The notes beneath the pieces are model-generated. The model was not told where the DNA came from. It was given only the letters and a program-made list of their open reading frames with translations, and ran no database searches. Shown piece by piece: positions 8,003 to 43,301 of a stretch of 64,000 nucleotides of DNA. Position 1 is the first letter of the stretch; every line of letters begins with the position of its first letter. The position numbers were made by a program, and so were the translations under genes. Where the stretch lies: assembly GCA_018820765.1 (NCBI GenBank), contig JAHJNN010000005.1, forward strand, positions 62,001 through 126,000, in the 5' to 3' direction. The DNA is from Gammaproteobacteria bacterium. Lineage in GTDB: Bacteria > Pseudomonadota > Gammaproteobacteria > Burkholderiales > Thiobacillaceae.

Positions 8003-8424
8003 CCATCCTGAAGAAAATAACTAAGACACTTAGCGCCAACGACACCGGAGAAACTGGCGGACATCAGGCCGGAATCCTGATACCCAAGACGCCTGGCATC
8101 CTTTCGTTTTTTCCAGAACTCGATGCCTCAATCAAAAACCCCCGCATATCGTTATATTTCTTCGAAGAGGACGGTGTTACCAAATGGCCGTTCGAGTTCA
8201 TCTATTACAACGGAAAGTTTTTCGGGGGCACACGAAATGAATTTCGGCTGACCTGGATGACCCAGTATCTTCGTGCCAAGAATGCGAAGACCGGGGACAA
8301 GATTGAGATGCTGCTGGACAGCGATGGCCGTCGCCATATCGTCCTGAAGCGGGAGCAGGAGGTTGTTGAGGACGACGGGGTTATCAAACTCCGGGGGGGA
8401 TGGAAAGTCATCGAATTGAAGTGA
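7999..8424 (+). CDS. Stand-alone EcoRII N-terminal-like (B3-type pseudobarrel) DNA recognition domain
   Basis: KTLSANDTGETGGHQAGILIP and FIYYNGKFFGGTRNEFRLT resemble the EcoRII N-terminal domain motifs (SANDTGATGGHQVG, YYNSRHFGKTRNEKRIT, recalled from memory); no EcoRII-C nuclease domain in this 141-aa protein. Confidence 0.82.
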   Translation: MTILKKITKTLSANDTGETGGHQAGILIPKTPGILSFFPELDASIKNPRISLYFFEEDGVTKWPFEFIYYNGKFFGGTRNEFRLTWMTQYLRAKNAKTGDKIEMLLDSDGRRHIVLKREQEVVEDDGVIKLRGGWKVIELK

Positions 8425-8431
8425 GAAAAAT

Positions 8432-10036
8432 ATGAGCGATAACGATAGATTCATTGAATGTCTGCCAGATCCTGAGCGGGTCACAGAGGGCCTGCGGGAC
8501 ACAGGCTATGAATTCGACACGGCAATAGCCGACATCATCGACAACAGCATCGCTGCCGAAGCTGATGTTGTCGATGTGCATATAAACATGGACCCTAGGG
8601 GTAATGTGATTGTCGGCATCGTCGATGACGGCCGGGGCATGGATCGGGGCGGACTTATCAACGCCCTCCGGTATGGATCGAAGAAACGCGATGACCCAGC
8701 CAGTCTTGGAAAATTCGGATTGGGTCTGAAAACCGCCTCAACCGCCTTCTGCCGTCGGCTAACCCTCGTTTCCCGCTGCATAGATGGTGCAGAGCCCCTG
8801 AAGGCGATCTGGGATCTTGATGCCGTAGCCGAGCACGGATGGCGCATAGAGATCATTCCTGCGCACAAGCACGAGATCGAGCTCTTGGACAAAACGGCCA
8901 AGGGTGGCTCGGGAACCCTCATGCTCTGGGAAAAAATTGACCGCCTCCTAGGGGAATACAAGGCTCAAGGTGGAGCGCCGGCCAAGAAGGCGTTACGCAA
9001 ATACACCGATAGCCTTGGACAGCATCTGTCCATGGTGTATCAGCGATTCCTTGATGCAAATGACAACCGGGCACGAACAGTTGTTATAAATCTGCAAGGG
9101 GCAAAGGTGCAGCCGTGGGATCCGTTCTGCTTGTCGGAAACCAAGGAACCCATCGCATTCAAGGAACTTGCAATCGAACTTGCCGAGGGTGTCGAGACCA
9201 AGTTTCTCGTCAGGGCATTTGTGCTCCCGCGTAAAGAAGACTTCAGCGACCAAGATGCAGCCAAGGGTGCTCTCATCAGCAATGACATGCAGGGGATATT
9301 TGTCTATCGAGAAAACAGGCTGATCCATGGCCCCGACTGGTTGGACATGTATCGAAAGGAGCCACACTTCAGTACATGCCGCGTGGAACTTTCGTTCAAC
9401 CACACACTGGATGAAGCGTTCCAGGTAGATATCAAAAAATCCAGGATTCTCCTGGCCAACGAGATTTACGACTGGTTACGCGACAAGTTCCTTCCTGGTC
9501 CTCGACGCGAGGCAGAATTGCGATACCGAAAGGGACAGAATACCGCTGCGACAGGAGTTGGCGCCCTGTTGCACAACTCGTCCAACAATGCAATCCACGG
9601 AAAGGCTGATGCGCTGAAGACCGCGAATCTTGAGGAATACAATGCCCAGACCGGGGAAGCCACCATCAGAAACAAGGGTGGACAGACAAAGCTCAAGATC
9701 AAGCTGGTCGAACCGGACAATCCGGGGCAAGTTCATGTACAGACCGTCGCAGATATCATCAACGGGCTGCTTTTCGAGCCTGCCTATATTTCAGGTAACC
9801 AAGGGGTGCAGATCAACACCAGCCACCCTTACTATCACAAGGTCTATCTGCCCAACCGCGATTCCCGAGTCACCATCCAAGGGCTTGATTCGCTGTTGTG
9901 GGCACTTTGCGCAGCTGAGTTGGGCTGCATCAGTAACGACACGAAACGCAAGTTTGAGGAGATGCGTTTTGAGGTCTCACGTCTGTTGCGACAGTTGGTC
10001 GAGGATATGCCTGACGCCCCTGAAGATCCACAATGA
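8432..10036 (+). CDS. GHKL (HATPase_c) protein, MORC/MutL-like ATPase of restriction-type operons
   Basis: N-box FDTAIADIIDNSIAA, GIVDDGRGMDRGGL, G-box LGKFGLGLKTASTAFCRRL. Confidence 0.85.
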   Translation: MSDNDRFIECLPDPERVTEGLRDTGYEFDTAIADIIDNSIAAEADVVDVHINMDPRGNVIVGIVDDGRGMDRGGLINALRYGSKKRDDPASLGKFGLGLKTASTAFCRRLTLVSRCIDGAEPLKAIWDLDAVAEHGWRIEIIPAHKHEIELLDKTAKGGSGTLMLWEKIDRLLGEYKAQGGAPAKKALRKYTDSLGQHLSMVYQRFLDANDNRARTVVINLQGAKVQPWDPFCLSETKEPIAFKELAIELAEGVETKFLVRAFVLPRKEDFSDQDAAKGALISNDMQGIFVYRENRLIHGPDWLDMYRKEPHFSTCRVELSFNHTLDEAFQVDIKKSRILLANEIYDWLRDKFLPGPRREAELRYRKGQNTAATGVGALLHNSSNNAIHGKADALKTANLEEYNAQTGEATIRNKGGQTKLKIKLVEPDNPGQVHVQTVADIINGLLFEPAYISGNQGVQINTSHPYYHKVYLPNRDSRVTIQGLDSLLWALCAAELGCISNDTKRKFEEMRFEVSRLLRQLVEDMPDAPEDPQ

Positions 10037-10854
10037 TCGATACCACACTGCTTCTCGAACGTCTTGGCGCGCGCTTCGGACATGATCTATCAGTCGAGCC
10101 TGAGGGTGACATTGGGCATGTTGCCATAAGGGTTCCTGGCCTCCCGCCTCCGGACGGATTCCGTCTCATCCTTTCGTCTGGATGGAGATCAATGGAAGCA
10201 GTGTTTTCTCCCGATCCATTCGCCTCAAGGTTGATGAAAACCTTGTGCTCGGATGATCCTCAACGCAGAAAAGAGTTTGCTGCCTTGGCAAGTACTTTTG
10301 GCGCTGTGGGGGTGACAAGTTCAGTACGTGTTGATGAGAAATCTGTAGATCCCAATTCGTTGCCTGAGGGTCCATGGTCGAAAGTTGAAATCTCTTGTAT
10401 CAGGCTAACTGACAAATCCGACGAACAAGGCGATGCCGAGAGGGTTGCCTCAGCCTCTCTTGCGCTTGTTCTTGCCCTTCTCCCTGTCGAGCGTGAATCT
10501 GTAGAAATTAGTCCATTAGCGCAGGGGTTGCCCGAGGGGGCGCTCGTTCGCCTTGCCGTAAATCGTTACGAGCGGAGTCCCTCAAACCGAGCCGCTGCGA
10601 TCGCGGTGCATGGTGCTTATTGTCATGCATGCGGTTTTGATTTTTCAGCCTTCTATGGAATGCTGGGCGATGGATTTATCGAAGTTCATCACCGGGTCCC
10701 AGTGTCCTCCCTTGGAGAAGGATATGTGATTGATCCCTCACAGGACTTGGTTCCACTTTGCGCAAATTGTCATCAAATGGTTCATCGTGAAGATCCTCCG
10801 ATTTCGCCTGAAGATCTTCGGGGCCTTCTTGTCACGCGCGGAGTCATTCGTTGA
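10033..10854 (+). CDS. HNH endonuclease (McrA-like C-terminus)
   Basis: C-terminal CHACGFDF...FIEVHHRVPVSSLGEG...DLVPLCANCHQMVHRE; ATGA overlap with upstream GHKL gene. Confidence 0.85.
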   Translation: MIDTTLLLERLGARFGHDLSVEPEGDIGHVAIRVPGLPPPDGFRLILSSGWRSMEAVFSPDPFASRLMKTLCSDDPQRRKEFAALASTFGAVGVTSSVRVDEKSVDPNSLPEGPWSKVEISCIRLTDKSDEQGDAERVASASLALVLALLPVERESVEISPLAQGLPEGALVRLAVNRYERSPSNRAAAIAVHGAYCHACGFDFSAFYGMLGDGFIEVHHRVPVSSLGEGYVIDPSQDLVPLCANCHQMVHREDPPISPEDLRGLLVTRGVIR

Positions 10855-24351: not shown

Positions 24352-25113
24352 TTAAGTCACGGCGATCACGCTAAGCACAACACCATCTGCGAGCTTCACG
24401 GACTGGGAGCGCACCTTCAGCTCCTGCCCTTGCCTGCCGGAAATCCATCGTGAGGCGGCCTCTTGGCGAAGCGTCGTCTTACCGGCCTTGTCGGCGGCAT
24501 AGAGAAGCTCGAAGGCTTCCGTCTCGTAGTTGAGCTCCGCGGCAAGCCTCATATATTCGGGCCATCCGGGGCTCAGCGCGAACCACTGCCGCCCCTGCAG
24601 CCCATGGCAGACGATCGCGGCGGCTTTTCCCGTCCCCTTGACCAGCTTGAGCGCCGTGGTCGTGAGCCCGGCCCTGAAAGCCATTCGGATCTTGTCGGCC
24701 GAATCCAAGGTTATTGGCATCCCCGCCGCGATGGGGTCAAACAGATACGAGGGCAGGATCAGCTGAGAAGCGAAGCCGTTCGCGATGGCTTCCGCGCTCT
24801 TGGCTGCGTCGTTTTGGGGCGATATGTCCTCCTTGGCGCAGATGAATCCCCCCTTCCCATGCCGCTCCACCCAATGCCCGAGCTCATGGGCGATGGAGAA
24901 GCGCTGCCGAGTCGCCTTGTGGTCCTCGTTGACCGTGATGATCGCGGAGACCCCATTCCCGACGATGCGGGCCTCGCTCCCATCGATCTTCCGGTAGCGA
25001 ACCTTCGCACCGAGCTCAAAGGCGATCGCCTCCAGATCGATCTGCTTCGGGCTATCTATCCCGAAGCTCTTGAGGATCAGTTCGCCTTTTGAAAGCGCTC
25101 GATGATCAGTCAT
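24352..25113 (-). CDS. ImmA/IrrE-family metallopeptidase
   Basis: RQRFSIAHELGHWVERHGKGGFICAKED...AEAIANGFASQLILPSYLF. Confidence 0.92.
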   Translation of the reverse strand: MTDHRALSKGELILKSFGIDSPKQIDLEAIAFELGAKVRYRKIDGSEARIVGNGVSAIITVNEDHKATRQRFSIAHELGHWVERHGKGGFICAKEDISPQNDAAKSAEAIANGFASQLILPSYLFDPIAAGMPITLDSADKIRMAFRAGLTTTALKLVKGTGKAAAIVCHGLQGRQWFALSPGWPEYMRLAAELNYETEAFELLYAADKAGKTTLRQEAASRWISGRQGQELKVRSQSVKLADGVVLSVIAVT

Positions 25114-25537
25114 CCTTCCTCGAGTCCCCGATCAGACCGCTTTCCACCATGTCATCCCAAAGGCTTTCCCAGTCGGCATCCGACATCGTTTCTCCTTTGC
25201 GGAACGCCAGCGACAGCCCATTAGAGGCTCCGCCACGGATCAGAGCTTGGATCTGGCGCTTGATCTCCTCAAGCGCGGGCCTTGCCTTGGCAACCGGGGA
25301 TTCCCGGAGAGAGGCGTCATAGCCTCGGCGAGCTGCTGCCAGCTTCTCGCGCTTGGCTTGGTTGATCTTCGCCAATGCGGAGGACCGCAACTCGGAAGCT
25401 TTTGTGGCGGGATCGATACCGTCCTCGATCGCCTCCTTGAGCAGATCCTCGTCGCTCATCGCCAGTAGGTCCTCGGAAATTAGCCGCTCGAGGGCAGCCA
25501 TTTGGGCTCCCGCCCCCATTCCTTTCGCCTCTTTCAT
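25106..25537 (-). CDS. Conserved-looking protein of unknown function in the sigma/ImmA operon
   Basis: Overlaps both neighbouring genes; no recognised motif. Confidence 0.6.
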   Translation of the reverse strand: MKEAKGMGAGAQMAALERLISEDLLAMSDEDLLKEAIEDGIDPATKASELRSSALAKINQAKREKLAAARRGYDASLRESPVAKARPALEEIKRQIQALIRGGASNGLSLAFRKGETMSDADWESLWDDMVESGLIGDSRKDD

Positions 25538-26187
25538 GATTTTCTCCCGCCAGGGAACAGCCGCTCGCGCTCTCGGCGCAGCCGTTTCCTCGCCGTCTCG
25601 TATTGTGTCTTGGTCATCTCGCCCATGGCTTGGATATCGCTCGCCCCCAGCCCATCCTCAAGCCCCATAAGAATCCATCCGACCTCTTGGTCGTCCTTGA
25701 GCCGCCCCTCGATCTTGGCGAGGTCCTTTTCGGCCATGGCGCGAGCCTCTTGCGTCAGGAGGGCATCCAGGGGCGTTTCTCCGTCCTCGCTGAGAATATC
25801 GAGGGCCTCTTCCGGTGGGTCGTCGCCGCTATCCACCAAGTCTCCGGCGAGAGCCACCTTCGGCTGCCGCTTGAGGGTGCGCAGGTTATTGGCGACGCTT
25901 TTCATCGCCGAATCCATCCAAGGCACGAAGGCCATCCCGATGTTCCAAGTCCTCCTGCCGGCGATCATCCGCTCGATAGTTTCGTTGATGAGTTCATCCG
26001 GATCCTCAAAGCGGGTTCCCCACAGGTGGCCCCAGGCCATCTTGCGAAGCCGGATCCACTCGATATCGCTCAAGCCGACGATGGCCTGCTCGATTTGCTC
26101 CAGCGTCGCCGGAGCTCCGTAGTTGCTTTCCAACGCGAATCCTCCTGTCGTTATTTCTAAGGCGGGGAGTTCCGCATGCCCGGACAT
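25534..26187 (-). CDS. Divergent sigma-70/ECF-like factor
   Basis: Region-2-like DPDELINETIERMIAGRRTWNIGMAFVPWMDSAMKSVANNLRTLKRQ and region-4-like GLGASDIQAMGEMTKTQYETARKRLRRERERLF; likely start at 26187. Confidence 0.65.
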   Translation of the reverse strand: MSGHAELPALEITTGGFALESNYGAPATLEQIEQAIVGLSDIEWIRLRKMAWGHLWGTRFEDPDELINETIERMIAGRRTWNIGMAFVPWMDSAMKSVANNLRTLKRQPKVALAGDLVDSGDDPPEEALDILSEDGETPLDALLTQEARAMAEKDLAKIEGRLKDDQEVGWILMGLEDGLGASDIQAMGEMTKTQYETARKRLRRERERLFPGGRKS

Positions 26188-26201
26188 AAATTTCTTGTCC
26201 G
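26181..26201. promoter_or_regulatory. Operator-like inverted repeat CGGACA-N9-TGTCCG in the divergent promoter region
   Basis: cggacataaatttcttgtccg overlapping the probable sigma gene start and ~65 bp upstream of the DUF2188 gene. Confidence 0.5.
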
Positions 26202-26266
26202 GATTTCTGGAGGGCAGCGCCTTAGGTAATGAGCGTGCATTGCTCGTTTTCACAGGAGTATAAAAG

Positions 26267-26494
26267 ATGGCAACCAAGCGTAATCAGCATGTAGTCCCTA
26301 GCGGCAAGGATTGGGCGGTGACGGGGGCGGGATCCAGCAGGGCGACCGAGATCCTCCCCACAAAGAGTCAGGCCGTCGGGCGGGCTCGGGAAATCAGCCG
26401 CAACCAAGGCACCGAGCTCATCGTTCACGGGCGTGACGGCAAGATTCAGAGCCGCGACAGCCACGGGCACGACTCTTTCCCGCCGAAAGGCTGA
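26267..26494 (+). CDS. DUF2188 protein
   Basis: QHVVPSGKDWAVTGAGSSRATEILPTKSQAVGRAREISRNQGTELIVHGRDGKIQSRDSHGHDSFPPKG. Confidence 0.88.
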   Translation: MATKRNQHVVPSGKDWAVTGAGSSRATEILPTKSQAVGRAREISRNQGTELIVHGRDGKIQSRDSHGHDSFPPKG

Positions 26495-26516
26495 ACATTT
26501 AAAGGAGGCCAGCATC

Positions 26517-26762
26517 ATGAGTACTGAAAAATCCAACCGGCCCGAACTCTTCATTGACAACGAGCGTTACGACTGGGATGAGGACACCATCACCGGCAGG
26601 CAGATTCGTGTTCTTGCGTCGCTCCCGGATGATGTCCAAATATTTCACAAGGTTCCCGGCCATCCTGACCAAGAAATCAAGGACGATACAGTCGTTGATC
26701 TGACCAAGCAGAAGGGACCAGACCGGTTCTGGACGCAACCGGTCGGCTCGCAGGCGGGGTGA
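26517..26762 (+). CDS. Multiubiquitin-type ubiquitin-like protein, single domain
   Basis: ELFIDNERYDWDEDTITGRQIRVLASLPDDVQIFHKVPGHPDQEIKDDTVVDLTKQKGPDRFWTQPVGSQAG; ends in Gly; next to E2/E1/JAB genes. Confidence 0.82.
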   Translation: MSTEKSNRPELFIDNERYDWDEDTITGRQIRVLASLPDDVQIFHKVPGHPDQEIKDDTVVDLTKQKGPDRFWTQPVGSQAG

Positions 26763-26768
26763 TCCGAT

Positions 26769-27176
26769 ATGCTGCTGCTCCTTGACACCGACTACGCGGA
26801 AATCCTGGAACGCGGCCTCGACTACGTCGAAGATGAAGCGCAGCGCTTTCTGGTGCTGCGTAACTTTCTTCTGCCCGAAGGTCTCTACCACGAGAAGACC
26901 TGTGACGTTCTTGTAATCATCCCGCAGAACTATAACCAAGGTGGTATCGATATGTTCTGGACGTTTCCCCACCTGACGCGCAATGATGGCAAGCCCATCC
27001 CTGCGATGAACCGGCCCGGCGGCGGCGACAACAGAACCTTTGACGGCAAGGAGTTCTGCCGCTGGTCGCGGCACTGGAATCATGCGCCAGTCATATGGAA
27101 GCCCGGCAAGGACAATGTCGTCACGATCCTGGGCCGCATTGTGTGGGCTCTCGGTAATCCGGACGCCAAGAAATGA
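26769..27176 (+). CDS. Prokaryotic E2-like protein (family E type)
   Basis: FLLPEGLYHEKTCDVLVIIPQNYNQGGIDMFWTFPHLTRNDGKPIPAMN...FDGKEFCRWSRHW. Confidence 0.82.
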   Translation: MLLLLDTDYAEILERGLDYVEDEAQRFLVLRNFLLPEGLYHEKTCDVLVIIPQNYNQGGIDMFWTFPHLTRNDGKPIPAMNRPGGGDNRTFDGKEFCRWSRHWNHAPVIWKPGKDNVVTILGRIVWALGNPDAKK

Positions 27177-28621
27177 CTGGGGCAAGAATCACATTGCTTG
27201 GCTCGCAACATGACGCCGTCACCATCTACCTAGAATCTCACCCTGAAAATCATGAAAGGGCTGCGGTGGTGCTATTCCGCCGCTTGCACGTTCATGTCCC
27301 GGGACTGCCAGATTCCGACCGCTATATCGCCCATGATGTGATTCAGTTTGAGGATGCATGGGTGACCGAGAGCTCACCAGAGATAGTCGCTTTCGAACTT
27401 GCCCCACTGCGCGAACTGTTCCAACGCTGCGAGGAGGAGGGGCTCGTCTTTGGCTTCATTCACAACCACCCCGCAGGCCCGGCGCAGTTCTCAGATATGG
27501 ACGAAGAGAACGAGCGGACATTGATCAAGGCGCTACGTAACCGCAATGGCCACGACATCACTTTTGTTGCGATGCTGTGGGCGGACGGGCAATGGCTGGC
27601 CAGGACGCGTAAAGGTGGGTGCCCGGAAATCGCGGTGCCAGTTCGGCACACGCTTGTACTTGGCGAGCGGATCACGCTTTACGGGTACAAGGAAAGCAGC
27701 GACGAACACACTGAGGTCCAGGCGCGTCAGGCTGCTGCGTTCGGAAAACCTTTCGTCGATATGCTTCAGTCGTTGCGCATTGGCGTTGCCGGAAACGGCG
27801 GCACCGGAAGCCCATTTGCAACGCTGGGCGCGCGCGGGGGAATCGGCGAGCTCGTGTTGCTCGATAAAGATCCGCTCGCTGCGAGCAATCTCAACCGCGT
27901 TAGGGGCCTCATGAAGGCAGATGTCGGTTTCGTCAAATCGGACACACTCAAGAACTTCATCGAAGGCATTGGGCTATCGGTCAAGGTTGCGTCCATAGCC
28001 TCAGATGTCGATACGGATCCGGTCGCCGTCGATGCGCTCGCTAGTTGCGATGTCATTGTTGGCTGCACCGACGATTTTGCAGGCCGTGAACTAATGAACG
28101 CTGCGCTTTATGCCTATGCGCAACCACTCATAGATATCGGGCTAGGCGGCAAGGTTGATGACGGGCTCGATGGTCACCCCTATCTTCGTTATCACTACGG
28201 ACGCATCAGCACGATCCTGCCCGAGCACGGCCAGTGCCTTTTTTGTCAGGGCGTGATCAAGGACATCTGGATTCAGGCACAGCTTGCACGCCGCGAAAAT
28301 CCGGATATCACCGCTGAAGAACTAAAAGACCGTTACCTCGAAGACGGTGGCACAGACGCGCCAGGCGTCGGGCCCTTCACCAGTGCTTCGGCCGATTTTG
28401 CCGTTGCAACGCTGTTTGACCTGATCAAGCCGTTTCGACGTTTTCCGCCGGAGGTGCGACGCGACATGTTCTTCGTGGATTTCGTGAAGATGGAGATCCA
28501 CAGCCACGAAACGGTGGGCAACCCTGACTGCTCGTATTGTCGTGCACACGAATTCCTTTTACTGAAGGAATCATGCAGACTCAATCGACCATTTTTAGGA
28601 AAGCGCGATGACTTTTGTTAG
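27173..28621 (+). CDS. JAB/JAMM peptidase fused to an E1/ThiF-like adenylation domain
   Basis: JAMM: FGFIHNHPAGPAQFSDMDEEN; E1: GVAGNGGTGSPFATLGARGGIGELVLLDKDPLAASNLNR...CDVIVGCTDD; zinc CLFC and CSYC. Confidence 0.92.
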   Translation: MTGARITLLGSQHDAVTIYLESHPENHERAAVVLFRRLHVHVPGLPDSDRYIAHDVIQFEDAWVTESSPEIVAFELAPLRELFQRCEEEGLVFGFIHNHPAGPAQFSDMDEENERTLIKALRNRNGHDITFVAMLWADGQWLARTRKGGCPEIAVPVRHTLVLGERITLYGYKESSDEHTEVQARQAAAFGKPFVDMLQSLRIGVAGNGGTGSPFATLGARGGIGELVLLDKDPLAASNLNRVRGLMKADVGFVKSDTLKNFIEGIGLSVKVASIASDVDTDPVAVDALASCDVIVGCTDDFAGRELMNAALYAYAQPLIDIGLGGKVDDGLDGHPYLRYHYGRISTILPEHGQCLFCQGVIKDIWIQAQLARRENPDITAEELKDRYLEDGGTDAPGVGPFTSASADFAVATLFDLIKPFRRFPPEVRRDMFFVDFVKMEIHSHETVGNPDCSYCRAHEFLLLKESCRLNRPFLGKRDDFC

Positions 28622-29036
28622 CCGGGTCGTAGCATGGATTAGGGAGCTCTTTACCCCGCATCCAGTTCCCGGTCAGGCACCGGAGCATGCCCCACAACTC
28701 GCGGCACCAGTTCATTTTTCCTCAGTCTTTATTGTCGGTAAGCCCCCGCATAATGACGAAATCGCGGCCGAATCTTTTTACTGCGTCATGATTGCAGACA
28801 ATCCTAAATGGGCCTTGTTTAAATGCCCTTGTCGGTGTGGTGACGTAGTTACACTCTCGCTTCAACAAGTACACCGCCCTCATTGGCGCTTAACGAGCAC
28901 ACTCACCGGTCGCCCAACCTTATACCCGTCGATATGGCGGGACAAGGGCTGCCTTAGTCATTTCTGGCTACGCGACGGTCGCGTGTTTTGGTGCGCAGAT
29001 ACTGGAAAACACCCCGACCTACGAACGTCTTATTGA
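28608..29036 (+). CDS. DUF6527-like protein
   Basis: WALFKCPCRCGDVVTLSLQQVHRPHWRLTSTLTGRPTLYPSIWRDKGCLSHFWLRDGRVFWC; overlaps the E1 gene end. Confidence 0.8.
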   Translation: MTFVSRVVAWIRELFTPHPVPGQAPEHAPQLAAPVHFSSVFIVGKPPHNDEIAAESFYCVMIADNPKWALFKCPCRCGDVVTLSLQQVHRPHWRLTSTLTGRPTLYPSIWRDKGCLSHFWLRDGRVFWCADTGKHPDLRTSY

Positions 29037-31847: not shown

Positions 31848-32675
31848 TCAGTTCTTGAGCCGCTTCATCTCTTCGGCCAGTATCCACAGCGCCCGGTTGA
31901 CCTTGACGTTCTGGTCTATGCCCTGGATGGCGCGGGTGCGGTTCCTGCGTCCGTTGGGCATGCGTGCGGTCAGTCCACCCTGCACCAGATTTTCCTGTAC
32001 GCGGTTGAACGTGCTCCACAGGTCGGGCCGGTCGTCGTCCCGGCGTCGAGGCCGCAGCAATTGTGTTTCCGTGATGGGCGCAGGCTCGACCGGGTCATCG
32101 TATTTCAGCGACAACGCGGCGCGGGCAAATGCCTCCGATTCGCCGTGCTTGAGCGTGATGGCGGCCATATCTTCCCGACGTTCCCGCACCAGATCGAACC
32201 CGTCCAGTACATCGTAGGCCCCTTCGATCACCTGGCCGATCACGTCGCCCTTGTGCGGGATGCGCAGGTCGGCCACGGTGTCGCCGCACACCAACCCATT
32301 GCTGCACACGAAACGGAACATTCCCGCCAGCATCTGATAGCTGCTGGTGCCGTCGTGCGAGTTCAGCAGAATGATTTCGTTGGCCTCCGCACCGTTGATC
32401 TGCGCTGCGTGGCGCAATCGCAGCATATGCTTGGTGTGTTCGCGCTTGCCGCTATCGCGTACGCGCGTCTGGCAAACCATGAATGGCTGGAAGCCTTCCT
32501 TTCGCAGGGCACCCAACACCTCTCCGGTCGGGATGTAGGTGTAGCGGTCGGATCGGCTCTGGTGCTTTTCCTCCGCAAAGATGGAAGGGGCCACGCTGCG
32601 AATCTGATCATCCGATAACGGATGGTCGGCGCGCAAGATGGGTGTAGCGTTGGCGAAACGGGAACTGAGTTGCAT
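31848..32675 (-). CDS. DUF932 protein
   Basis: YTYIPTGEVLGALRKEGFQPFMVCQTRVRD...HDGTSSYQMLAGMFRFVCSNGLVCGDTVADLRIPHKGD. Confidence 0.9.
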   Translation of the reverse strand: MQLSSRFANATPILRADHPLSDDQIRSVAPSIFAEEKHQSRSDRYTYIPTGEVLGALRKEGFQPFMVCQTRVRDSGKREHTKHMLRLRHAAQINGAEANEIILLNSHDGTSSYQMLAGMFRFVCSNGLVCGDTVADLRIPHKGDVIGQVIEGAYDVLDGFDLVRERREDMAAITLKHGESEAFARAALSLKYDDPVEPAPITETQLLRPRRRDDDRPDLWSTFNRVQENLVQGGLTARMPNGRRNRTRAIQGIDQNVKVNRALWILAEEMKRLKN

Positions 32676-33245: not shown

Positions 33246-33752
33246 CTACAGCAGCCCGCGTTCAGCAAAACTCATGATGGCGCTACCGGCGACGATCAGG
33301 TGATCCAGCACCCGCACGTCCACCAGCGCCAGCGCCGACTTCAGCGTTTGCGTCAGCATCTCGTCGGCCCGCGATGGCTCGGCTGTACCTGATGGGTGGT
33401 TATGCACCAGCAGCAGCGCAGCGCTGTTCCTGGCCAACGCCTCCTTGACCACCTCGCGCGGATACACCGATGTCTGGCTCACCGTGCCGCGAAACATCTC
33501 GACGTAGTCGATGACCCGGTTCTGTGCGTCCAGATGGATGACGGCGAACACCTCGTGCTCCAGCGCCCCCAGCTTGACCCGCAGGAAGTCGCGCACCACC
33601 TGCGGCGAGGTCAGCGCTTCGCAGCCGCGCATCTGTCCTGCGAGCACACGCCGCGCAGCCTGCAACACCTCGTCGGCATTGGCCGGACGGTAGTCGCCCG
33701 CGACATCGCGAACGAGAAGGGAAGAATCGAGAGAAAGAGAAAGTTGCGACAT
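33246..33752 (-). CDS. radC: RadC-family (JAB) protein
   Basis: FAVIHLDAQNRVIDYVEMFRGTVSQTSVYPREVVKEALARNSAALLLVHNHPSGTAEPSRADEMLT. Confidence 0.95.
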   Translation of the reverse strand: MSQLSLSLDSSLLVRDVAGDYRPANADEVLQAARRVLAGQMRGCEALTSPQVVRDFLRVKLGALEHEVFAVIHLDAQNRVIDYVEMFRGTVSQTSVYPREVVKEALARNSAALLLVHNHPSGTAEPSRADEMLTQTLKSALALVDVRVLDHLIVAGSAIMSFAERGLL

Positions 33753-34145
33753 GATCGTGCTCCAGTCCGAATCGGGCGGAATTGCCCGGAACCGGAGGAA
33801 CACGGCGCAGCGCAGCAGTCAGGGGTCGCAGACGGCCGCGAGGACGCAAGCGATCAACCAAAGGGCAGGGCGCGCAGCCCTTGACGGCGAGAACGGCGTG
33901 GTACGTTGAAGGGAACAGCAAGGCCGCCTCACATACACACCACTGCCTCAACGGCAAGCAGCGCGCGCAGGCCCAAAGGGCCGGAGGCGTCAGGAATCAA
34001 AGCCGAATGGCCGCGACTCGGAACGAGGCGCGGGGCGCCGCCCGCGAGCCCGACGGCGGGACGCCGGAACGCCGGAACGCCCGGAATCAGCCGACAAGAT
34101 TCACGGTAAATATTGGCGTCTTGTCGAAATATCGATACGGACAAA

Positions 34146-35008: not shown

Positions 35009-36031
35009 TCATTGAGCCGGTTGCTTTGCATTGGCTTTCTGCTGGATCGCCTGGCATCGCTCCATCAGCGCTTCGAATGGCTCGGCGTTATCGAGGAACA
35101 AGCCGTCATCGATCATGTGTTGATAGTCGGCGGCCAATTTGGCCAACGCGCCGTCATCTGGCACGAGCTGGAGCTCCCCTGCGACCGCTGCGTGATAATC
35201 GATGACATCGCCATGCGTGTTCTTTTCTGCAAAGAACACGCTCTTGTGTTCGGCAACTGCGCGGGCGAGGGCTTTGTCCGCGATGGCTGCGTCGGCGAAG
35301 CCGGCGGCATCCAGTCTCGTCACGTCGTGCCAATGACGCGCGAAGCGGTCACCACCCCGGAACTCGCCTTGCGCACAGAAAACGTGAATCGCCGTAGCCT
35401 TTTCCCAGAAGGTGCGCTCGGCGCGCATGACCTGCGGTGTTGCGGCGGGAAACTCCACCCCCTGCAGATACGCGGCCGCATCGCAGAGGATCGCGCGTGG
35501 TTCGCTGGGCTCGCCAGTCGAGCGGGCGCCGAACTCCAACATGACGGCGGGCGCGACATAGCCGGTGCCGGTGACCAGCGGCGCGTAGTCGATGAACACT
35601 TTGTCGCCCTCGGCCCGCACGGTTGCCGGTAGACCGTTTTGCGCAAGGTCCTGCATGAGACGTGGCACGATCTCAGCGCCGACCCAGTCCGACAGGCGCG
35701 CACGAATCTCTTTGCTCCACTTCTTCTCCTGGCTTTTGCTGGCCGGCAGTGGCGCATTCGCATCGCCCACCAGATCGCTGGCGATGGCACGAATGTCGTA
35801 AGTCAGGTCCACGTCTTCGGAGAAGCGCCGGATGACACCGTAGGCCTTCGACAAGGATGTGCCGCCCTTGAATACCAAGTGTTCAGCGTAGGGGCCGGCA
35901 AAGAGGTGCCGCAGCGACCAGACTACCCAGATGTCTTTTTCCAGCAGATGGGGCAGGAGGCCCGATGTGTTGGCTGCCAAGTCGAGCGCCTCCAAGCGTT
36001 CGGCGGTGGAAAGCTGGAAGAACTCAGCCAT
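35009..36031 (-). CDS. AbiEii-type nucleotidyltransferase toxin
   Basis: LLEKDIWVVWSLRHLF...LVFKGGTSLSKAYGVIRRFSEDVDLTYD. Confidence 0.92.
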   Translation of the reverse strand: MAEFFQLSTAERLEALDLAANTSGLLPHLLEKDIWVVWSLRHLFAGPYAEHLVFKGGTSLSKAYGVIRRFSEDVDLTYDIRAIASDLVGDANAPLPASKSQEKKWSKEIRARLSDWVGAEIVPRLMQDLAQNGLPATVRAEGDKVFIDYAPLVTGTGYVAPAVMLEFGARSTGEPSEPRAILCDAAAYLQGVEFPAATPQVMRAERTFWEKATAIHVFCAQGEFRGGDRFARHWHDVTRLDAAGFADAAIADKALARAVAEHKSVFFAEKNTHGDVIDYHAAVAGELQLVPDDGALAKLAADYQHMIDDGLFLDNAEPFEALMERCQAIQQKANAKQPAQ

Positions 36032-36620
36032 GGGTCACCAGGGCGCTGATCTCTTGAGCCATCCAGGTCGGCAGGCGCGCTCGCGCCGACGCGACTTCTT
36101 TCAACTCAGCCGGCGGCAGCTTGGTGCGTAGCTTCCGGATCGCTTCCCCGGCTTTTTCCGGGCCCAGCCAAGCCAGTGCCCGCACTATTTCGCCGGCGGC
36201 CCGTCCCGGGAAGATCAGTTGCCAGACCGGCGCGTGCCGAAACTCGACCATCTGCGCGCCCAATTTCAAGCGGCGACTGGGGCCGGACGTGAGATAAACC
36301 GCCCGCATCGGCACCTGTGTGGTAAGGCCCAGGGCGTTGGCAGCGGCGGCGCCGTGAGACACGATGGTTTCCCCACGCTGGTTCGCCAGGCCCTCGACCA
36401 TCTTGACGGCCGACGGCGCACGGGTGCCAAAGCGGCTCTCGACGGGCAGGACATAGATACCGCGGCCAGCGCGCAACAGGGCGCCGCGCTGCACCAAGCG
36501 GGATAAGACTTGGTCTACGGCTGCGCGACTGCCCAGGTGCAAGAGTTCTTTGGCGACCAAAGGGGTGCCCTCCGGCAATCTGGCGGCGTGCTCCAGAACT
36601 TGTTTGGCGAGAGTCTGCAT
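36024..36620 (-). CDS. AbiEi/DUF6088-type antitoxin
   Basis: wHTH-like VDQVLSRLVQRGALLRAGRGIYVLPVESRFG; overlaps and precedes the AbiEii gene. Confidence 0.85.
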   Translation of the reverse strand: MQTLAKQVLEHAARLPEGTPLVAKELLHLGSRAAVDQVLSRLVQRGALLRAGRGIYVLPVESRFGTRAPSAVKMVEGLANQRGETIVSHGAAAANALGLTTQVPMRAVYLTSGPSRRLKLGAQMVEFRHAPVWQLIFPGRAAGEIVRALAWLGPEKAGEAIRKLRTKLPPAELKEVASARARLPTWMAQEISALVTHG

Positions 36621-36732
36621 GGGTGATATCTCCTAACTGTTAGAATTATGAGGCTACTTCTGACACTCTGCAAGTACCAAGTACCTTAAGGCTCGCGCGG
36701 GGCTGGGTCGACCAAGCGGTATTACGGCCTCG

Positions 36733-37407
36733 ATGTTGGCGAAAAAGATTGACGAATCTAAAAAATTGCACAAAAATGCAGTTGACGAATTTAAAAAGGT
36801 GCACAAAATGACTCTGCCGCCGCCCGCCAGCTTCAATCCCGAGCTTTCCTCTGATCGCCTGCAGACCGTGTCTCAATGGTTGCTGGATGAGCTTTATGCG
36901 ACCGAAGACGATCTGTCCCGTCCGACCGATAACGGCTATACCCGAGGTTGCACAACCTTCGGGCGACAGAGAAACAGGATCATTGCGGAAGTGCTATCGG
37001 CAAGGCACGCGTGGCTCGGCTTGCCGAATAGCAACAACGACCTGGTTTTCACCATTGGCGGGGTGCCTTGCCGGTTCAGTAATGACGATCCGTCGAACCC
37101 GTCGAAAGACGCGGTCCTGACAGTCAATCGCTACCAGATGGACTTCCTGGAATTCGCAACCGGTAGCGAGCCCGCCCGCTTCTGCTTCATCATCGATCGA
37201 GGCCATGACGGCGCTGCGGAACCTCGGGTCGAGTTTCTCGGCTTTACGCCCAACGGCGTGATCGCCTGCCGTTGGGTGTCGAATGCTGTGCGTGTCTTGC
37301 GAGTGGAAGGTCAGCAGACCTTGCCGCAACCCGTCGACGTGGCGAAGCCCCAGGTGGCGCCGAAGCGGCGCGACGAAGGTGATGCCGCCTCCGAAGCAGT
37401 GCGATGA
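36733..37407 (+). CDS. Unknown protein coupled to XRE-ImmA protein
   Basis: ATGA overlap with the downstream gene; no recognised domain. Confidence 0.55.
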   Translation: MLAKKIDESKKLHKNAVDEFKKVHKMTLPPPASFNPELSSDRLQTVSQWLLDELYATEDDLSRPTDNGYTRGCTTFGRQRNRIIAEVLSARHAWLGLPNSNNDLVFTIGGVPCRFSNDDPSNPSKDAVLTVNRYQMDFLEFATGSEPARFCFIIDRGHDGAAEPRVEFLGFTPNGVIACRWVSNAVRVLRVEGQQTLPQPVDVAKPQVAPKRRDEGDAASEAVR

Positions 37408-38525
37408 GCGACTTCGTTGGAACCAACCTTCGGCTCATCCGCCTCTTCCACGACCTGTCGCTCACGGAGTTGGGGGAGCGGGTCGGGGTGTCGAAGCAGT
37501 TCCTCAGTCGTGTGGAAACCGGTGCCGAATCAGTTGCCGCTCCGCTTGAGAATTCGCTTGCCGAAGAACTGGATGTCCTGCCGGAGTTTTTCTATCACCT
37601 CGACCCGAATCCGATTGCCGATGAGCAGTGCCACTTTCGCCGGCAATTGACGACCAAGGTGGTGTTGCGCCAGGTCGCGCGCGCCAGAGGCGAAATGCTC
37701 AAGCGCTTGGTGGGCGTGCTGGATGAGCACGTCGAACTGCCGCACTACCAAGTGGGCGAGGCCGATCCGGGGTCTCCCGAGACTATCGAGCGTGCCGCCG
37801 AAAAATTCCGCTCGCTCTTTGGTCTCGGTCTGGGTCCGCTGAGCAATGTAACGCGCATTGCGGAGAATGCCGGCGCCGTGGTGATGAAGGTGCACGGCTT
37901 GGCACCCGAAATCGATGCGGTGTCGTTTGCCACAAAGCGGCCACTGATCGCGCTGAACAGTTCGGGGCGTTCGGCATGCCGCGAGCGCTTTGGCATCGCC
38001 CACGAATTGGGGCACTTTTCGTTGCATATCGGAATTTTGACTGGAGATCGGATGACCGAGACACAGGCAAATCGGTTTGCCAGTGCACTTCTGATGCCGC
38101 GAAGTACGTTTACTAGTGAATGCCGCCTGGCGGTTCGCGGAACACGCCTCAACTGGCCGGTTCTATCCGAGCTTAAGGTGCGTTGGGGCGTGTCCAAGGC
38201 TGCAATTATCTTTCGTGGTCGGCAGCTTGGGGTATTTTCGGATGACCAGGCGAGGGCAGGATACATCGGACTCAAACGCCATGGCGAAGCCGTGCAAGAA
38301 TCGGAAGACCATCTGATCGCGAATGAGGAGCCTGAGGTCATCGCCGAGAGCTTGAAAGTGATGAAGGAACATTTCGGCGTACCTCAGTCTGCTGTCGCGC
38401 GCGAAATGTGTGTGCAGCCAGATCTGTTGCAGAATCTGCTGGTATCGCCCCGCGCAGAGAGCGTGGACAATGTGGTGAATCTCCTGACTGTAGGTCGATT
38501 GGCGCGCGATATCAGGCCAGCATGA
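37404..38525 (+). CDS. XRE HTH plus ImmA/IrrE metallopeptidase fusion
   Basis: LRLIRLFHDLSLTELGERVGVSKQFLSRVETG; RFGIAHELGHFSLH...TETQANRFASALLMP. Confidence 0.92.
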   Translation: MSDFVGTNLRLIRLFHDLSLTELGERVGVSKQFLSRVETGAESVAAPLENSLAEELDVLPEFFYHLDPNPIADEQCHFRRQLTTKVVLRQVARARGEMLKRLVGVLDEHVELPHYQVGEADPGSPETIERAAEKFRSLFGLGLGPLSNVTRIAENAGAVVMKVHGLAPEIDAVSFATKRPLIALNSSGRSACRERFGIAHELGHFSLHIGILTGDRMTETQANRFASALLMPRSTFTSECRLAVRGTRLNWPVLSELKVRWGVSKAAIIFRGRQLGVFSDDQARAGYIGLKRHGEAVQESEDHLIANEEPEVIAESLKVMKEHFGVPQSAVAREMCVQPDLLQNLLVSPRAESVDNVVNLLTVGRLARDIRPA

Positions 38526-38629
38526 GCGGTCTAGCTGCTAGCTACAGGAACTACGCTACCCCCAGCTACAAAATTGCCGAGCCGCGGAGCTAGCTAATAT
38601 GCTTGATTCATCGACCGAGGAGATGAAGG

Positions 38630-39679
38630 ATGTTTGAGGAGATGTTGAGAGTTGCCCGTCAGCTAGACGGGATGAAGGTCTCCGTTTCCGTTGGCGGGGA
38701 AACTGATCAGGATGGATATATCGATCGACAGTGCCCTGCCACCGACTGCGAGTTTTCTTTCAAGGTCCACGCGGGTGATTGGCGGGACAAGGTAAGTGAC
38801 GATGGTGTCCATTGCGCGTTTTGCGGGCATACAGCCGACAGCCAGCAGTGGTTCACACACGAGCAGGTTGAGCACGCAAAGAAAGAAACCTTGGACAAGG
38901 TCAAGGGCATGCTCGGCCAGGCTATGCGAACCGATGCGCAACGCTTGAACCAATCCCAGCGCCGCAATAGCTTTCTGAAGATCACCATGAACGTGTCGAG
39001 CCAGCCTCGGGAGATCCTGTTGCCTGCGGAGGCAACCGATCCCATGCGTCTGAAGATCACGTGTTCGGTTTGCGGGTGCCGGTATGCCGTGATTGGATCG
39101 GCCTTCTTTTGCCCGGCGTGTGGACACAACGACGCCGAACAAGTGTTCCGCCAATCCATAACCGCGATTCGTTCAACCCTGGACGCATTGCCTCTCGTAC
39201 GACAAGGCATCGCCGATGCCGATACCGCCGAAAACACGGTTCGGCTGCTGATCGAAAGCGGGTTGCAGAACGCTATCACGGCATTCCAGCGTTTCGCGGA
39301 AGCGCTCTATCTGCAACACCCTGCAGCGCCCAAAGCGCGCCGCAACGTCTTTCAGAACCTTGCTGAAGGGGGCGCACTGTGGGTGATGGCCTGCGACCAC
39401 GGTTATGACAAGCATCTTTCGGATTCGGAGCTTGCTAGCCTCAGTCGCTACTTCCAGCAGCGCCATCTGTTGGCACACAAAGAAGGTTTGGTGGATGACG
39501 ACTATGTTGCGAAAAGCGGGGATACAACCTACTGCTCCGGTCAGCGAGTCGTCGTGCGGGAGGCCGCCGTTCGGGAGTGCGTGCAATTGATCGAGACGCT
39601 CGCAGTCGGCATGAAGCGTGATGTGGGGCGGGGCGGCGAGCCACTGCGCCCGATCTCCGGCGCAGAGAAGAAGGTCTGA
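38630..39679 (+). CDS. Zinc-ribbon protein with HEPN-like C-terminus
   Basis: CPATDCEF/CAFCGH and CSVCGC/CPACGH; RYFQQRHLLAHKEGLVDDDYV (R-x4-H). Confidence 0.6.
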   Translation: MFEEMLRVARQLDGMKVSVSVGGETDQDGYIDRQCPATDCEFSFKVHAGDWRDKVSDDGVHCAFCGHTADSQQWFTHEQVEHAKKETLDKVKGMLGQAMRTDAQRLNQSQRRNSFLKITMNVSSQPREILLPAEATDPMRLKITCSVCGCRYAVIGSAFFCPACGHNDAEQVFRQSITAIRSTLDALPLVRQGIADADTAENTVRLLIESGLQNAITAFQRFAEALYLQHPAAPKARRNVFQNLAEGGALWVMACDHGYDKHLSDSELASLSRYFQQRHLLAHKEGLVDDDYVAKSGDTTYCSGQRVVVREAAVRECVQLIETLAVGMKRDVGRGGEPLRPISGAEKKV

Positions 39680-39693
39680 TCAATCAAGCAGGA

Positions 39694-41541
39694 ATGCCCA
39701 TGCGACTCAGCAGAATCGTCATCAAGAACTTCCGTAATTTCAAGTTACTGGATGTCCGCCTGGGCGAGCATGCCGTTGTGCTCGGCGAAAACAAGGTTGG
39801 CAAAACCAATCTACTGTTCGCGCTTCGACTCATTCTTGACCCGACGCTCCCAGACTCACTGCGCAAGCTCCGGCTGGATGATTTCTGGGATGGGCTACCG
39901 CGACCGCTCAAAGCCGAAGACGTTATTGAAGTCTCGGTTGAATTTCGCGATTTCGAACGGAACGAGAATCTCTTGGCGGTGTTAGCCGACCATCTCGTGA
40001 AGCCGGACCCGATGGTGGCGAGACTTACGTACCGGTATCAGCCAGTACCGGGACTTGAAAGCTCCCCACGCAGCGAAGCAGATTACGAGTTTATTCTGTT
40101 CGGTGGGGATCGGCCTGATAATGCCGTCGGTTACGATCTGCGGCGTTGGATGCCGCTGGATCTGTTTCCGGCGTTGCGTGATGCCGAGTCGGATCTTGCC
40201 CGCTGGTCTCGGTCTCCGTTGCGGCCTTTGCTGGACCGTGCCGCCAAGACGGTGGATGCAAAAGCGCTGAACACGATTGCCGGTGAGGTTCACAAAACCA
40301 CTTCCAAGATTGCGGCGCTGCCGGAACTCGCGGCGGTCGTTAATGAAGTCAATACCCAACTCACCACCATGGTGGGTGAGAAGCATGCCGTCGAAACGGC
40401 ACTGGGATTCGCCCCGACGGAGCCAGACCGGTTGCTGCGAGCGCTGCAAATGATGATAGACGGCGGCAAGCGCGGCGTGGCTGAGGCAAGCCTCGGGTCC
40501 GCCAATGTACTTTACCTGGCACTGAAGCATCTAGAGCATCAATACCTCGTGGAAGAAGGGGAGCGCCAGCACACGTTTTTGGCGATTGAGGAACCAGAAG
40601 CCCATCTACATCCGCATCTGCAGCGGCTCATTTACCGGAACTACCTGCAAACACGTGACGAAGCCGAAGCTGATCCCGAGCCACGCAGCATTCTGCTCAC
40701 CACGCATTCCCCGAACGTGGCCAGCGTGGCGCCGCTTGCCAATGTCGTCGTACTGCGCCGTATTGCCAATGAAGGACACACCATTGGTCGCTCTTTGAAA
40801 GGCATCAAACTGAGCGATGAAGAGCGTGAGGACTTGGAACGCTACATCGACGTAACGCGCGGCGAGCTATTTTTCTCCAAGGGAGTCATCCTGGTTGAAG
40901 GCGATGCGGAGAAGTTCCTGCTGCCTACGCTTGCCAAGCTGTACGACAAGAGCTTGGATTTCGATGCGATGGGCGTCTCCATTTGCTCCATTGCCGGCAC
41001 CAACTTCGCTCCGTATATCCAGTTGCTGGGTCCAAAAGGGCTGGACATTCCGTTTGTCGTGCTGACGGATTTTGATCCGAAGGATGAAGAGGTGAGTCAG
41101 GAGGACGCTGATCCGGACGGCGAGGGTGTGACGGATAGCTATGGAGAAAATCGTGTTGTCAATCAAATCATGTGCCATCTACTGGATGGTGACGTGTGGA
41201 AAGAGAGTAGCTATGCGCAAGTGCTGAAGCTCGCCCCGAAGCACGGTGTATTTCTGAATGAGTTTACGTTTGAGATTGATGTCTTCAAGACGGGCGCAGA
41301 GGACGAGTTCTTAAAAGCCATCAAGACACTCACCGGCAACAAGAAAATGCACGCTCGGTTCGCGGCCTTGTCAGATGATCCGAATTCACTTGATCCGGGA
41401 CAGCTCCTAAAAGACATCGACTCCATCGGCAAGGGACGTGTGGCCCAGCGCCTGGCATCAGTTTTGATTGACGAGGATGTCGATGTTTGCCCGCCGTACA
41501 TCGAAGCGGCGTTGGATTACTTGAAGGCAAAGCTGGAATGA
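39694..41541 (+). CDS. gajA: OLD-family ATPase/TOPRIM nuclease, GajA-like
   Basis: MRLSRIVIKNFRNFKLLDV, Walker A VLGENKVGKTNLLFAL, Walker B FLAIEEPEAHLHPHLQRL, TOPRIM VILVEGDAEKFLLP and VVLTDFDPKD. Confidence 0.85.
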   Translation: MPMRLSRIVIKNFRNFKLLDVRLGEHAVVLGENKVGKTNLLFALRLILDPTLPDSLRKLRLDDFWDGLPRPLKAEDVIEVSVEFRDFERNENLLAVLADHLVKPDPMVARLTYRYQPVPGLESSPRSEADYEFILFGGDRPDNAVGYDLRRWMPLDLFPALRDAESDLARWSRSPLRPLLDRAAKTVDAKALNTIAGEVHKTTSKIAALPELAAVVNEVNTQLTTMVGEKHAVETALGFAPTEPDRLLRALQMMIDGGKRGVAEASLGSANVLYLALKHLEHQYLVEEGERQHTFLAIEEPEAHLHPHLQRLIYRNYLQTRDEAEADPEPRSILLTTHSPNVASVAPLANVVVLRRIANEGHTIGRSLKGIKLSDEEREDLERYIDVTRGELFFSKGVILVEGDAEKFLLPTLAKLYDKSLDFDAMGVSICSIAGTNFAPYIQLLGPKGLDIPFVVLTDFDPKDEEVSQEDADPDGEGVTDSYGENRVVNQIMCHLLDGDVWKESSYAQVLKLAPKHGVFLNEFTFEIDVFKTGAEDEFLKAIKTLTGNKKMHARFAALSDDPNSLDPGQLLKDIDSIGKGRVAQRLASVLIDEDVDVCPPYIEAALDYLKAKLE

Positions 41542-43301
41542 CATCCATTGCGCCCCTCTATCTCAAAGCGGCGGAAGATCTGCGTAGGAACGAGGATCAA
41601 TGGCGCGCTTATGCATCGGACGGAAATTGCGTGATCCTGGCCGGACCCGGCAGCGGTAAGACCAAGACGATCACCATCAAGATCGCTCGGCTTCTTGCTG
41701 AGGATGTGCACCGTCCCCGCCGGCTGGCATGCATTACCTATAGCAACTCCTGTGTCGGGGAGTTGCGGTCCAGGATGAATGGGCTCGGCGTTGACGACGG
41801 CGATCGCCTCTTGCTCTCCACCGTACATTCCTTCTGCCTGACTGAACTGGCGTTGCCCTACGCGGCCTTGGCCGGCATTGCCGTTCCCAATCCTCTGGTG
41901 GTGGCATCGCCTGTGCAGGCGAGACAGCTTTTCGCCGAAGCCTACCGGCAGCAGCTTGGAGGCAATGCGCCCAACTGGTTTCGCATGGCTTGTGAAAAGT
42001 TACGGCGAACTATTCCGGATAAGGCCGGTGCCGAATGGCGTGCGTGGTCCGCGCGAGAAACAAGGGTGGTCGAAGCCTATGAAGCCCTTCTCCTCAAGAA
42101 CGGTTTGATCGACTTTGACGGGCTGGTTCTTGCGGGACTACAACTCGTCGAGAACCACGAATGGGTACGACGCGCCATTCAGGCCAAATACCCGGTGATC
42201 GTTATCGACGAATACCAGGATCTGGGGCTCCCGCTGCACCGCATCGTGCTGGCGCTGCTGAAGGCGGGGGTCCGTGTGATTGCCGTCGGGGACCCGGATC
42301 AGTCCATCTACGGTTTCACAGGAGCAAAGCCCAGCCTGTTGCGAGCATTGGGCGGTCTTCCGGAGGTTGATTCGATCAGGCTCAAGCTGAATTACCGATG
42401 CGCCGACCGTATCATCGCCGCGTCCAAGGCGCTTCTGCCTGATCCGCCAGAGTTTCGCTCTCACGATGGACGAGCGGGTGAAATCCACATTCACTGCCTG
42501 GAGCGCAATGTCCGTCAGCAGGCTGACTATGTGCTCAGTACCATCGTGCCGGCTCTGCTTGCTGCGAATCCGTCATGGAAGCCGGGAGACATCGCTCTGC
42601 TTTACCGCACGATGAACGAAGGTACACCAATCGCGCAGGCGGCCGATGCGCTCGATTTGCGCTATTTCCGGCTTGACAATGGGTCTCCCATCAAGCGCAC
42701 GCGTTTGACGGAATGGCTGACTGACGCGGCAAAATGGTGCTCCGGTGGGTGGCAGACGGGTACGGTGCGATTGTCCCAATTGCTCAAATCCTGGCGACTG
42801 ATGCGTCGATCACTCACTCGCGAGTCTGAAGTGCTTGCCGCCCGCAAGCGATTGATCGCTGCCTTATTCGCTCTCCGCGACGCTGCTAGTCCTCTGCATC
42901 AATGGCTGTCCGTGCTGCGTAGCGAGGTTTTGGAAGAGGCGTTCAGGGAGGAGCCTGGGCTGGCGGACGAGAAGGACAACCTTGACGACCTGTTGACGGC
43001 ATCCGTAGCGGGCGGTGCGTTACAGGCATTCACGGTCGAGATTTTTGGGAATCAGGGGAAGAGTCCGGATCAGATCAACCTGATGACACTGCACAGCTCG
43101 AAAGGGCTGGAGTTCCAGGCGGTAATCATGGTGGGTCTGGAAAATGGCGTTTTTCCCAGCGGTTACGACCGGACCGACGAGCAACTGGAAGAGGCGGCTC
43201 GGCTCTTCTATGTTGGAGTGACACGAGCAAGAACGCAGATTCATTTGACCTATGAGTCTGATGAATCGCCCCTTATCACGTCAATCCGGCGGGCGGCGTA
43301 G
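41538..43301 (+). CDS. gajB: UvrD/Rep-like helicase, GajB-like
   Basis: VILAGPGSGKTKTITIKIARLL, VIVIDEYQDLGLPLHRIVLALLKAGVRVIAVGDPDQSIYGFTGA, LMTLHSSKGLEFQAV, LFYVGVTRAR; ATGA overlap with gajA-like gene. Confidence 0.85.
   Translation: MTSIAPLYLKAAEDLRRNEDQWRAYASDGNCVILAGPGSGKTKTITIKIARLLAEDVHRPRRLACITYSNSCVGELRSRMNGLGVDDGDRLLLSTVHSFCLTELALPYAALAGIAVPNPLVVASPVQARQLFAEAYRQQLGGNAPNWFRMACEKLRRTIPDKAGAEWRAWSARETRVVEAYEALLLKNGLIDFDGLVLAGLQLVENHEWVRRAIQAKYPVIVIDEYQDLGLPLHRIVLALLKAGVRVIAVGDPDQSIYGFTGAKPSLLRALGGLPEVDSIRLKLNYRCADRIIAASKALLPDPPEFRSHDGRAGEIHIHCLERNVRQQADYVLSTIVPALLAANPSWKPGDIALLYRTMNEGTPIAQAADALDLRYFRLDNGSPIKRTRLTEWLTDAAKWCSGGWQTGTVRLSQLLKSWRLMRRSLTRESEVLAARKRLIAALFALRDAASPLHQWLSVLRSEVLEEAFREEPGLADEKDNLDDLLTASVAGGALQAFTVEIFGNQGKSPDQINLMTLHSSKGLEFQAVIMVGLENGVFPSGYDRTDEQLEEAARLFYVGVTRARTQIHLTYESDESPLITSIRRAA

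Follow-up and report, generated by a model that had tools for sequence, protein, structure and literature searches.

Five compact genes lie on the plus strand of the window, the 64,000-nucleotide stretch of DNA analyzed here, in the order DUF2188, Ubl, E2, JAMM-E1, and DUF6527 (Table 1). The last three overlap or abut, with overlaps at E2/JAMM-E1 and JAMM-E1/DUF6527. The original prediction had described these five genes, with a single-domain Ubl ending in Gly, an E2-like protein, and one polypeptide carrying both a JAMM and an E1/ThiF domain with two CxxC pairs. Our analysis agreed: the Ubl has one PF14452 domain and ends in ...GSQAG, the E2 matches PF14462, and the JAMM and CxxC residues of the fusion are invariant among distant relatives. 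The prediction was silent on three minus-strand genes (24352-26133), which are part of the same unit, and on a pair of promoter motifs between the two operons. The genome consists of 18 contigs and has one copy of the window E2; the JAMM-E1 is 99% identical to one in a Thiobacillus denitrificans genome, so that Thiobacillus is the probable source of the window.

Table 1. Genes and predicted promoters of the divergent unit (window positions).
Feature	Position	Strand	Details
CapP-type ImmA/IrrE (M78) metalloprotease	24352..25113	-	253 aa; HELGH; PADLOC capP 1.6e-47; Pfam Peptidase_M78 1e-13
H', all-helical, without HTH	25106..25537	-	143 aa; gene overlaps both neighbors
ECF-type sigma factor	25534..26133	-	199 aa; TTG start, AGGAGG upstream
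Predicted sigma-dependent promoter of sigma-H'-CapP operon	26157..26186	-	TGTCCGG-N16-GCCTTAG
Predicted sigma-dependent promoter of Bub operon	26196..26225	+	TGTCCGG-N16-GCCTTAG
DUF2188 protein	26267..26494	+	75 aa; PF09954 3e-22; PADLOC candidate PDC-S16 5e-34
Ubl (BubA-like)	26517..26762	+	81 aa; single Multi_ubiq domain PF14452 2e-9
E2-like protein (BubB-like)	26769..27176	+	135 aa; PF14462 Prok-E2_E 1e-33
JAMM-E1 fusion (BubCD-like)	27173..28621	+	482 aa; PF00899 ThiF 3e-29; PF14464 weak on its own
DUF6527	28608..29036	+	142 aa; PF20137 1e-22

In a search of PDB chains, the best match of the JAMM-E1 was Citrobacter BubCD (1e-19) and that of the E2 was Citrobacter BubB (1e-7); the relatives of the Ubl were the multi-ubiquitin chains 9d59 and 9cd2 and, weakly, 9ea8 BubA. 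Since the E2 and the JAMM-E1 both have Bub proteins as their best solved relatives, the core of the window operon is, judged by sequence, a Bub operon, a kind already published. According to PMC13373217, the definition of Bub operons goes back to Gong et al. 2025 and Ye et al. 2026; PMC13373217 counts 544 such operons, of which 219 have CapW or CapH+CapP, and states that Bub operons are not known to protect against phage. The proposal of a Ubl-E2-E1-JAMM conjugation operon is strongly supported. The fusion of JAMM to E1, which the prediction had named as a feature of this variant, does not make it a new one: it is a known Bub trait, because the same fusion has been solved as Citrobacter BubCD (9ea4, 9ea5, and 9eav). 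We collected relatives in an 80-locus genome survey plus plasmids, which gave about 90 related loci. Two Bub subtypes were present: the E1 of the Citrobacter type has no cysteine pairs, and that of the window type has two CxxC pairs, both conserved. DUF6527 lies downstream in both subtypes.

The divergent cassette and its paired promoter motifs

The three minus-strand genes overlap one another and are divergent from the Bub operon. We aligned the family of the sigma-like protein from 14 loci and found that it matched sigma-H at 4e-7, and also SigH, RpoE, and SigW, over regions 2 to 4. Its significant PDB matches were to ECF-type sigma factors only. Pfam Sigma70_r2 was detected in 5 of the 14 members, with a best value of 2e-7, and NCBI annotates one cassette member as a sigma-70 factor. 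The window protein on its own falls below the Pfam thresholds, and its regions 2 and 4 are assigned at the level of the family. The conserved second gene of the cassette encodes H', a small acidic protein, for which AlphaFold2 gave an all-alpha model of modest quality (pLDDT 76, pTM 0.35). A fold search of the PDB with this model returned no match and no convincing HTH, and no recognizable anti-sigma domain was seen in H'. We propose that H' is a CapP substrate and, from gene order and overlap, an anti-sigma factor.

The two sites between the operons are the only perfect matches to TGTCCGG-N16-GCCTTAG in the 3.44-Mb genome. The sigma gene starts about 24 bases past its predicted -10, with the AGGAGG in between. 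Across the cassette loci, the intergenic regions contain YGTC(C/G)(G/A) on both strands, and about 18 bases after the hexamer comes a -10 that differs between lineages (GCATA, CCTTA, and TCCTT, among others). When site pairs picked by eye in 17 loci were compared, bases +24 to +26 after the start of the hexamer were identical between the divergent sites in all 17 (10 of 10 independent lineages), the spacer positions were near background, and the gap between the divergent hexamers ranged from 6 to 179 bp. A palindromic operator between the operons had been our first suspicion; it was ruled out by this variable half-site gap together with the second element at a fixed distance. Thus, the sites are best read as two promoters of one sigma factor.

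A strict automatic test was added to the selection by eye. Of the 16 cassette Bub loci, 8 had the promoter pair by this test (seven, plus L036, added upon re-examination of a region that had been cut short), and of the 70 Bub loci under other regulators, none did; the Fisher P value of 2e-7 for this contrast is optimistic because related loci are not independent. The same test found the pair in five of six non-Bub cassette loci and in 0.25% of shuffles. The lineage of L033, L034, L037, and L038 has the cassette, and there the paired motif was absent (4338-5100) and no alternative promoter pair was found; the diverged sigma factor of these loci may read another promoter. Outside this lineage, the arrangement has, by sequence, the form predicted for an autoregulated ECF sigma factor with its cognate bipartite promoter.

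It is also conceivable that the Bub core is correctly identified and that the cassette is an ordinary CapH+CapP repressor, with H' or the sigma-like protein being a diverged DNA-binding repressor and the motif pair its operator. No other regulator is as common in Bub loci as CapH+CapP (33), and PADLOC capH does match H' weakly (2e-4), but a CapH-HTH profile search matched no H' open reading frame, the H' model resembles no HTH convincingly, and the sigma-like family significantly matches ECF-type sigma factors alone. In addition, a half-site gap that varies so widely, combined with a fixed spacing from hexamer to -10, is unlike a dimer operator. We consider this explanation unlikely, and we favor an ECF sigma factor acting at two promoters.

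Partner genes, distribution, and genomic setting

Among the surveyed Bub loci, the regulators were HTH-CapH+CapP in 33, the sigma-H'-CapP cassette in the place of CapH+CapP in 16, a large CapP-domain protein in 13, CapK+CapS in 3, and CapW in 2. CapH+CapP, CapK+CapS, and CapW are DNA-damage switches (PMC13373217). Three close relatives of the window operon (L022, L024, and L028) have CapK+CapS or a CapW-like HTH-WYL regulator instead; thus, regulators swap freely on one Bub lineage. In 13 loci, a protein of about 1140 aa is encoded upstream of Bub on the same strand (L058:1505-4930, L093:1199-4888, L114:1753-5163, and similar). The three that were scanned contain M78 (CapP-like), UvrD helicase, and PD-(D/E)XK nuclease domains, and this protein may be a form of the CapP switch that senses DNA ends.

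The cassette also occurs without Bub. In Cereibacter sphaeroides, its divergent neighbor is a CBASS operon (SMODS + SAVED), and in Bradyrhizobium it is a DUF3892 gene; in Polaromonas, Rhodoferax, Sagittula, and a Rhodobacteraceae plasmid, the cassette is divergent from DUF2188 genes. It is rare: a search of 386 genomes from a different class of the phylum found H' in two. In four loci (L101, L102, L104, and L108), the cassette faces nothing but DUF2188 and small proteins (about 92 aa), and these are candidate minimal defense or stress modules.

Both DUF6527 and DUF2188 had been put forward as partners in the conjugation pathway. This holds for DUF6527, which 82 of the 86 surveyed loci encode; the other four were short or cut, and two of them regained the gene on extension. 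DUF6527 is therefore a core gene of the whole branch. Its alignment has conserved C and H residues, and its model is a confident all-beta fold (pLDDT 88), for which a fold search of the PDB gave no match; no paper on DUF6527 was found in the literature searched. It would be a core accessory protein, perhaps handling the substrate or the Ubl. DUF2188, in contrast, is encoded ahead of the Ubl in 8 of the 21 loci with a single Ubl and is present in 1 of the 65 others, where it is downstream (Fisher P = 3e-5, with the same dependence among related loci), and in comparisons with PDB chains it gave chance matches only. Because it also lies beside the sigma-H'-CapP cassette in loci with no Ubl, the description of co-regulated partner suits it better than that of a conjugation component.

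The surroundings of the operon are rich in defense genes. A defense island occupies 4190-10851 and 35012-43298 of the window, with cytosine methylase, Vsr, and MzaB-like genes at 4 to 11 kb, AbiEii at 35 to 36 kb, and RmrA (XRE-M78) and Gabija (GajA and GajB) at 37 to 43 kb, as well as a type IV restriction-like gene and PDC-M14A. This setting favors an immune role, and anti-phage action of the window operon is plausible. Near the operon are a DUF932 gene (Pfam; 31851-32675) and a RadC-like JAMM open reading frame (33246-33803), whose motif was seen by eye in the translation; genes of these two kinds are common on plasmids and integrative elements. A first viral scan found no relative of the operon, and a viral profile scan returned two fragments, one with the cassette. 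A phage origin was set aside, given no match in the phage collection.

Predicted conjugation chemistry

We used the locus survey to ask which residues are kept. The JAMM set E28/H97/H99/S107/D110 and the ThiF-type ATP-site residues of the E1 were invariant or nearly so, and the zinc pairs of the E1 (C355/C358 and C453/C456) were invariant among distant relatives. Such invariance of the JAMM set and the CxxC pairs is not due to chance. In the E2, R98-W-S100-R-H102 (RWSRH) was kept in essentially all of 92 aligned sequences, and this alignment has no conserved cysteine column. An invariant Ser without a conserved Cys fits serine-based transfer of the Ubl. We infer a serine mechanism from this conservation and from the serine-linked Ubl intermediates that were reportedly described by Ye et al. 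2026.

A conserved Gly is found at or near the C terminus of the Ubl across relatives; after it come between 0 and about 9 residues or, in fusions, the E2, as would be expected of precursor Ubls. Many relatives have 1 to 9 residues or an entire E2 beyond the Gly, and there JAMM processing would be needed; the window Ubl ends in ...SQAG and is already mature. Several loci (L010, L014, L045, L056, L061, and others) encode Ubl-Ubl-E2 as a single reading frame in which the E2 is preceded by the conserved Gly; this implies internal cleavage by JAMM. In the window, the JAMM part of the JAMM-E1 would reverse conjugation and, in relatives that need it, trim precursor Ubls. The E1 part would adenylate the C-terminal Gly of the Ubl with ATP, and the acyl group would then be handed to Ser100, which is invariant in the E2, and finally to target proteins.

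A Bub system using classical cysteine thioester chemistry would place the intermediate at C97 of the E2, which lies three residues ahead of S100 and is common to most close relatives. Other close relatives have S, L, or F at this position, however, and the wider family has Q, while S100 is invariant, and so we regard the cysteine route as very improbable compared with transfer through Ser100. That the operon is instead a biosynthetic sulfur-carrier pathway (ThiS/MoaD-like), as the similarity of the E1 part to ThiF and MoeB might suggest, is scarcely credible and was ruled out: the E2 and JAMM domain are kept in all complete loci, the Ubl is sometimes fused to the E2, biosynthetic partners are absent, and the nearest solved proteins are Bub conjugation proteins.

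A proposed switch and its comparison with known systems

The conjugation pathway had been called self-contained. This is wrong, because the operon and the three-gene switch share a divergent promoter region. We propose that H' would hold the ECF sigma factor inactive and that CapP, probably activated by DNA damage or ssDNA like its CapH-cleaving relatives, would cleave H'. The freed sigma factor would then act at the two matching divergent promoters and transcribe both the DUF2188-Bub operon and its own. Cleavage of H' is suggested by analogy with CapH+CapP loci, in which CapP is activated by ssDNA and cleaves CapH (PMC13373217). The gene content, the invariant residues, the sigma family, the conservation of the cassette, and the promoter pair were all observed; what we infer is sigma-H' binding, cleavage of H' by CapP, a DNA-damage signal, and an immune role.

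We give a probability of roughly 0.6 to the explanation as a whole, namely a Bub operon with E2 transfer through Ser100 that is switched by the divergent sigma-H'-CapP cassette. We also think the odds somewhat better than even that the cassette is a portable immune switch, in which DNA-damage-activated CapP destroys an anti-sigma factor and the ECF sigma factor transcribes itself and the adjacent defense operon (Bub, CBASS, or DUF2188) from twin promoters. The known DNA-damage switches of defense operons lift a repressor, and a sigma version would amount to positive control. If true, the response would be stronger and would amplify itself, and new defense genes could be sought by a simple promoter signature. 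Given that the cassette is found next to Bub, to CBASS, and to DUF2188 on its own, DUF2188 and the ~92-aa protein that accompanies it are suggested to be defense or stress effectors. The Bub survey itself offers clean residues to mutate and, in DUF6527, a near-universal partner without a solved structural relative.

The closest known relative of the core is Citrobacter BubA/BubB/BubCD (PDB 9ea4, 9ea5, 9eae, and 9eav), which has a Ubl, a Ser-type E2, and a JAMM-E1 fusion in the same order as in the window; DUF6527 is likewise downstream in the Citrobacter-type locus L114. The window differs in having one Ubl domain rather than several, two CxxC zinc pairs that the Citrobacter-type E1 lacks, and a leading DUF2188 gene. 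Bil (BilABCD) antiphage operons also comprise Ubl, E2, E1, and JAMM parts, and the window Ubl weakly matches a chain labeled BilA (8u38). However, Bil has separate E1 and JAMM genes and a Cys-type E2, whereas in the window JAMM and E1 are fused, the E2 family has no conserved cysteine, and the E2 and E1 match Bub chains and not Bil chains. For these reasons we do not place the operon in Bil.

The sigma-H'-CapP module was not described in the largely open-access literature searched. The Bub core is known, and the sigma cassette seems to be a form of the CapP switch that is new to the literature. It shares with CapH+CapP a CapP-type M78 protease, matching the PADLOC capP profile (Table 1), that is divergent from a defense operon. 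In place of an adjoining HTH repressor CapH, it has an ECF sigma factor and the HTH-less H', and activation is proposed where CapH+CapP acts by derepression. The same logic, by which alone we liken the two, is found in the Calp system of type III CRISPR (CalpL protease, CalpT anti-sigma factor, and CalpS sigma factor), where a signal-activated protease cuts the anti-sigma factor and frees the sigma factor (PMC12751052). CalpL is a cA4-sensing SAVED-Lon protease, whereas the window encodes an ImmA/IrrE protease that would respond to a different signal.
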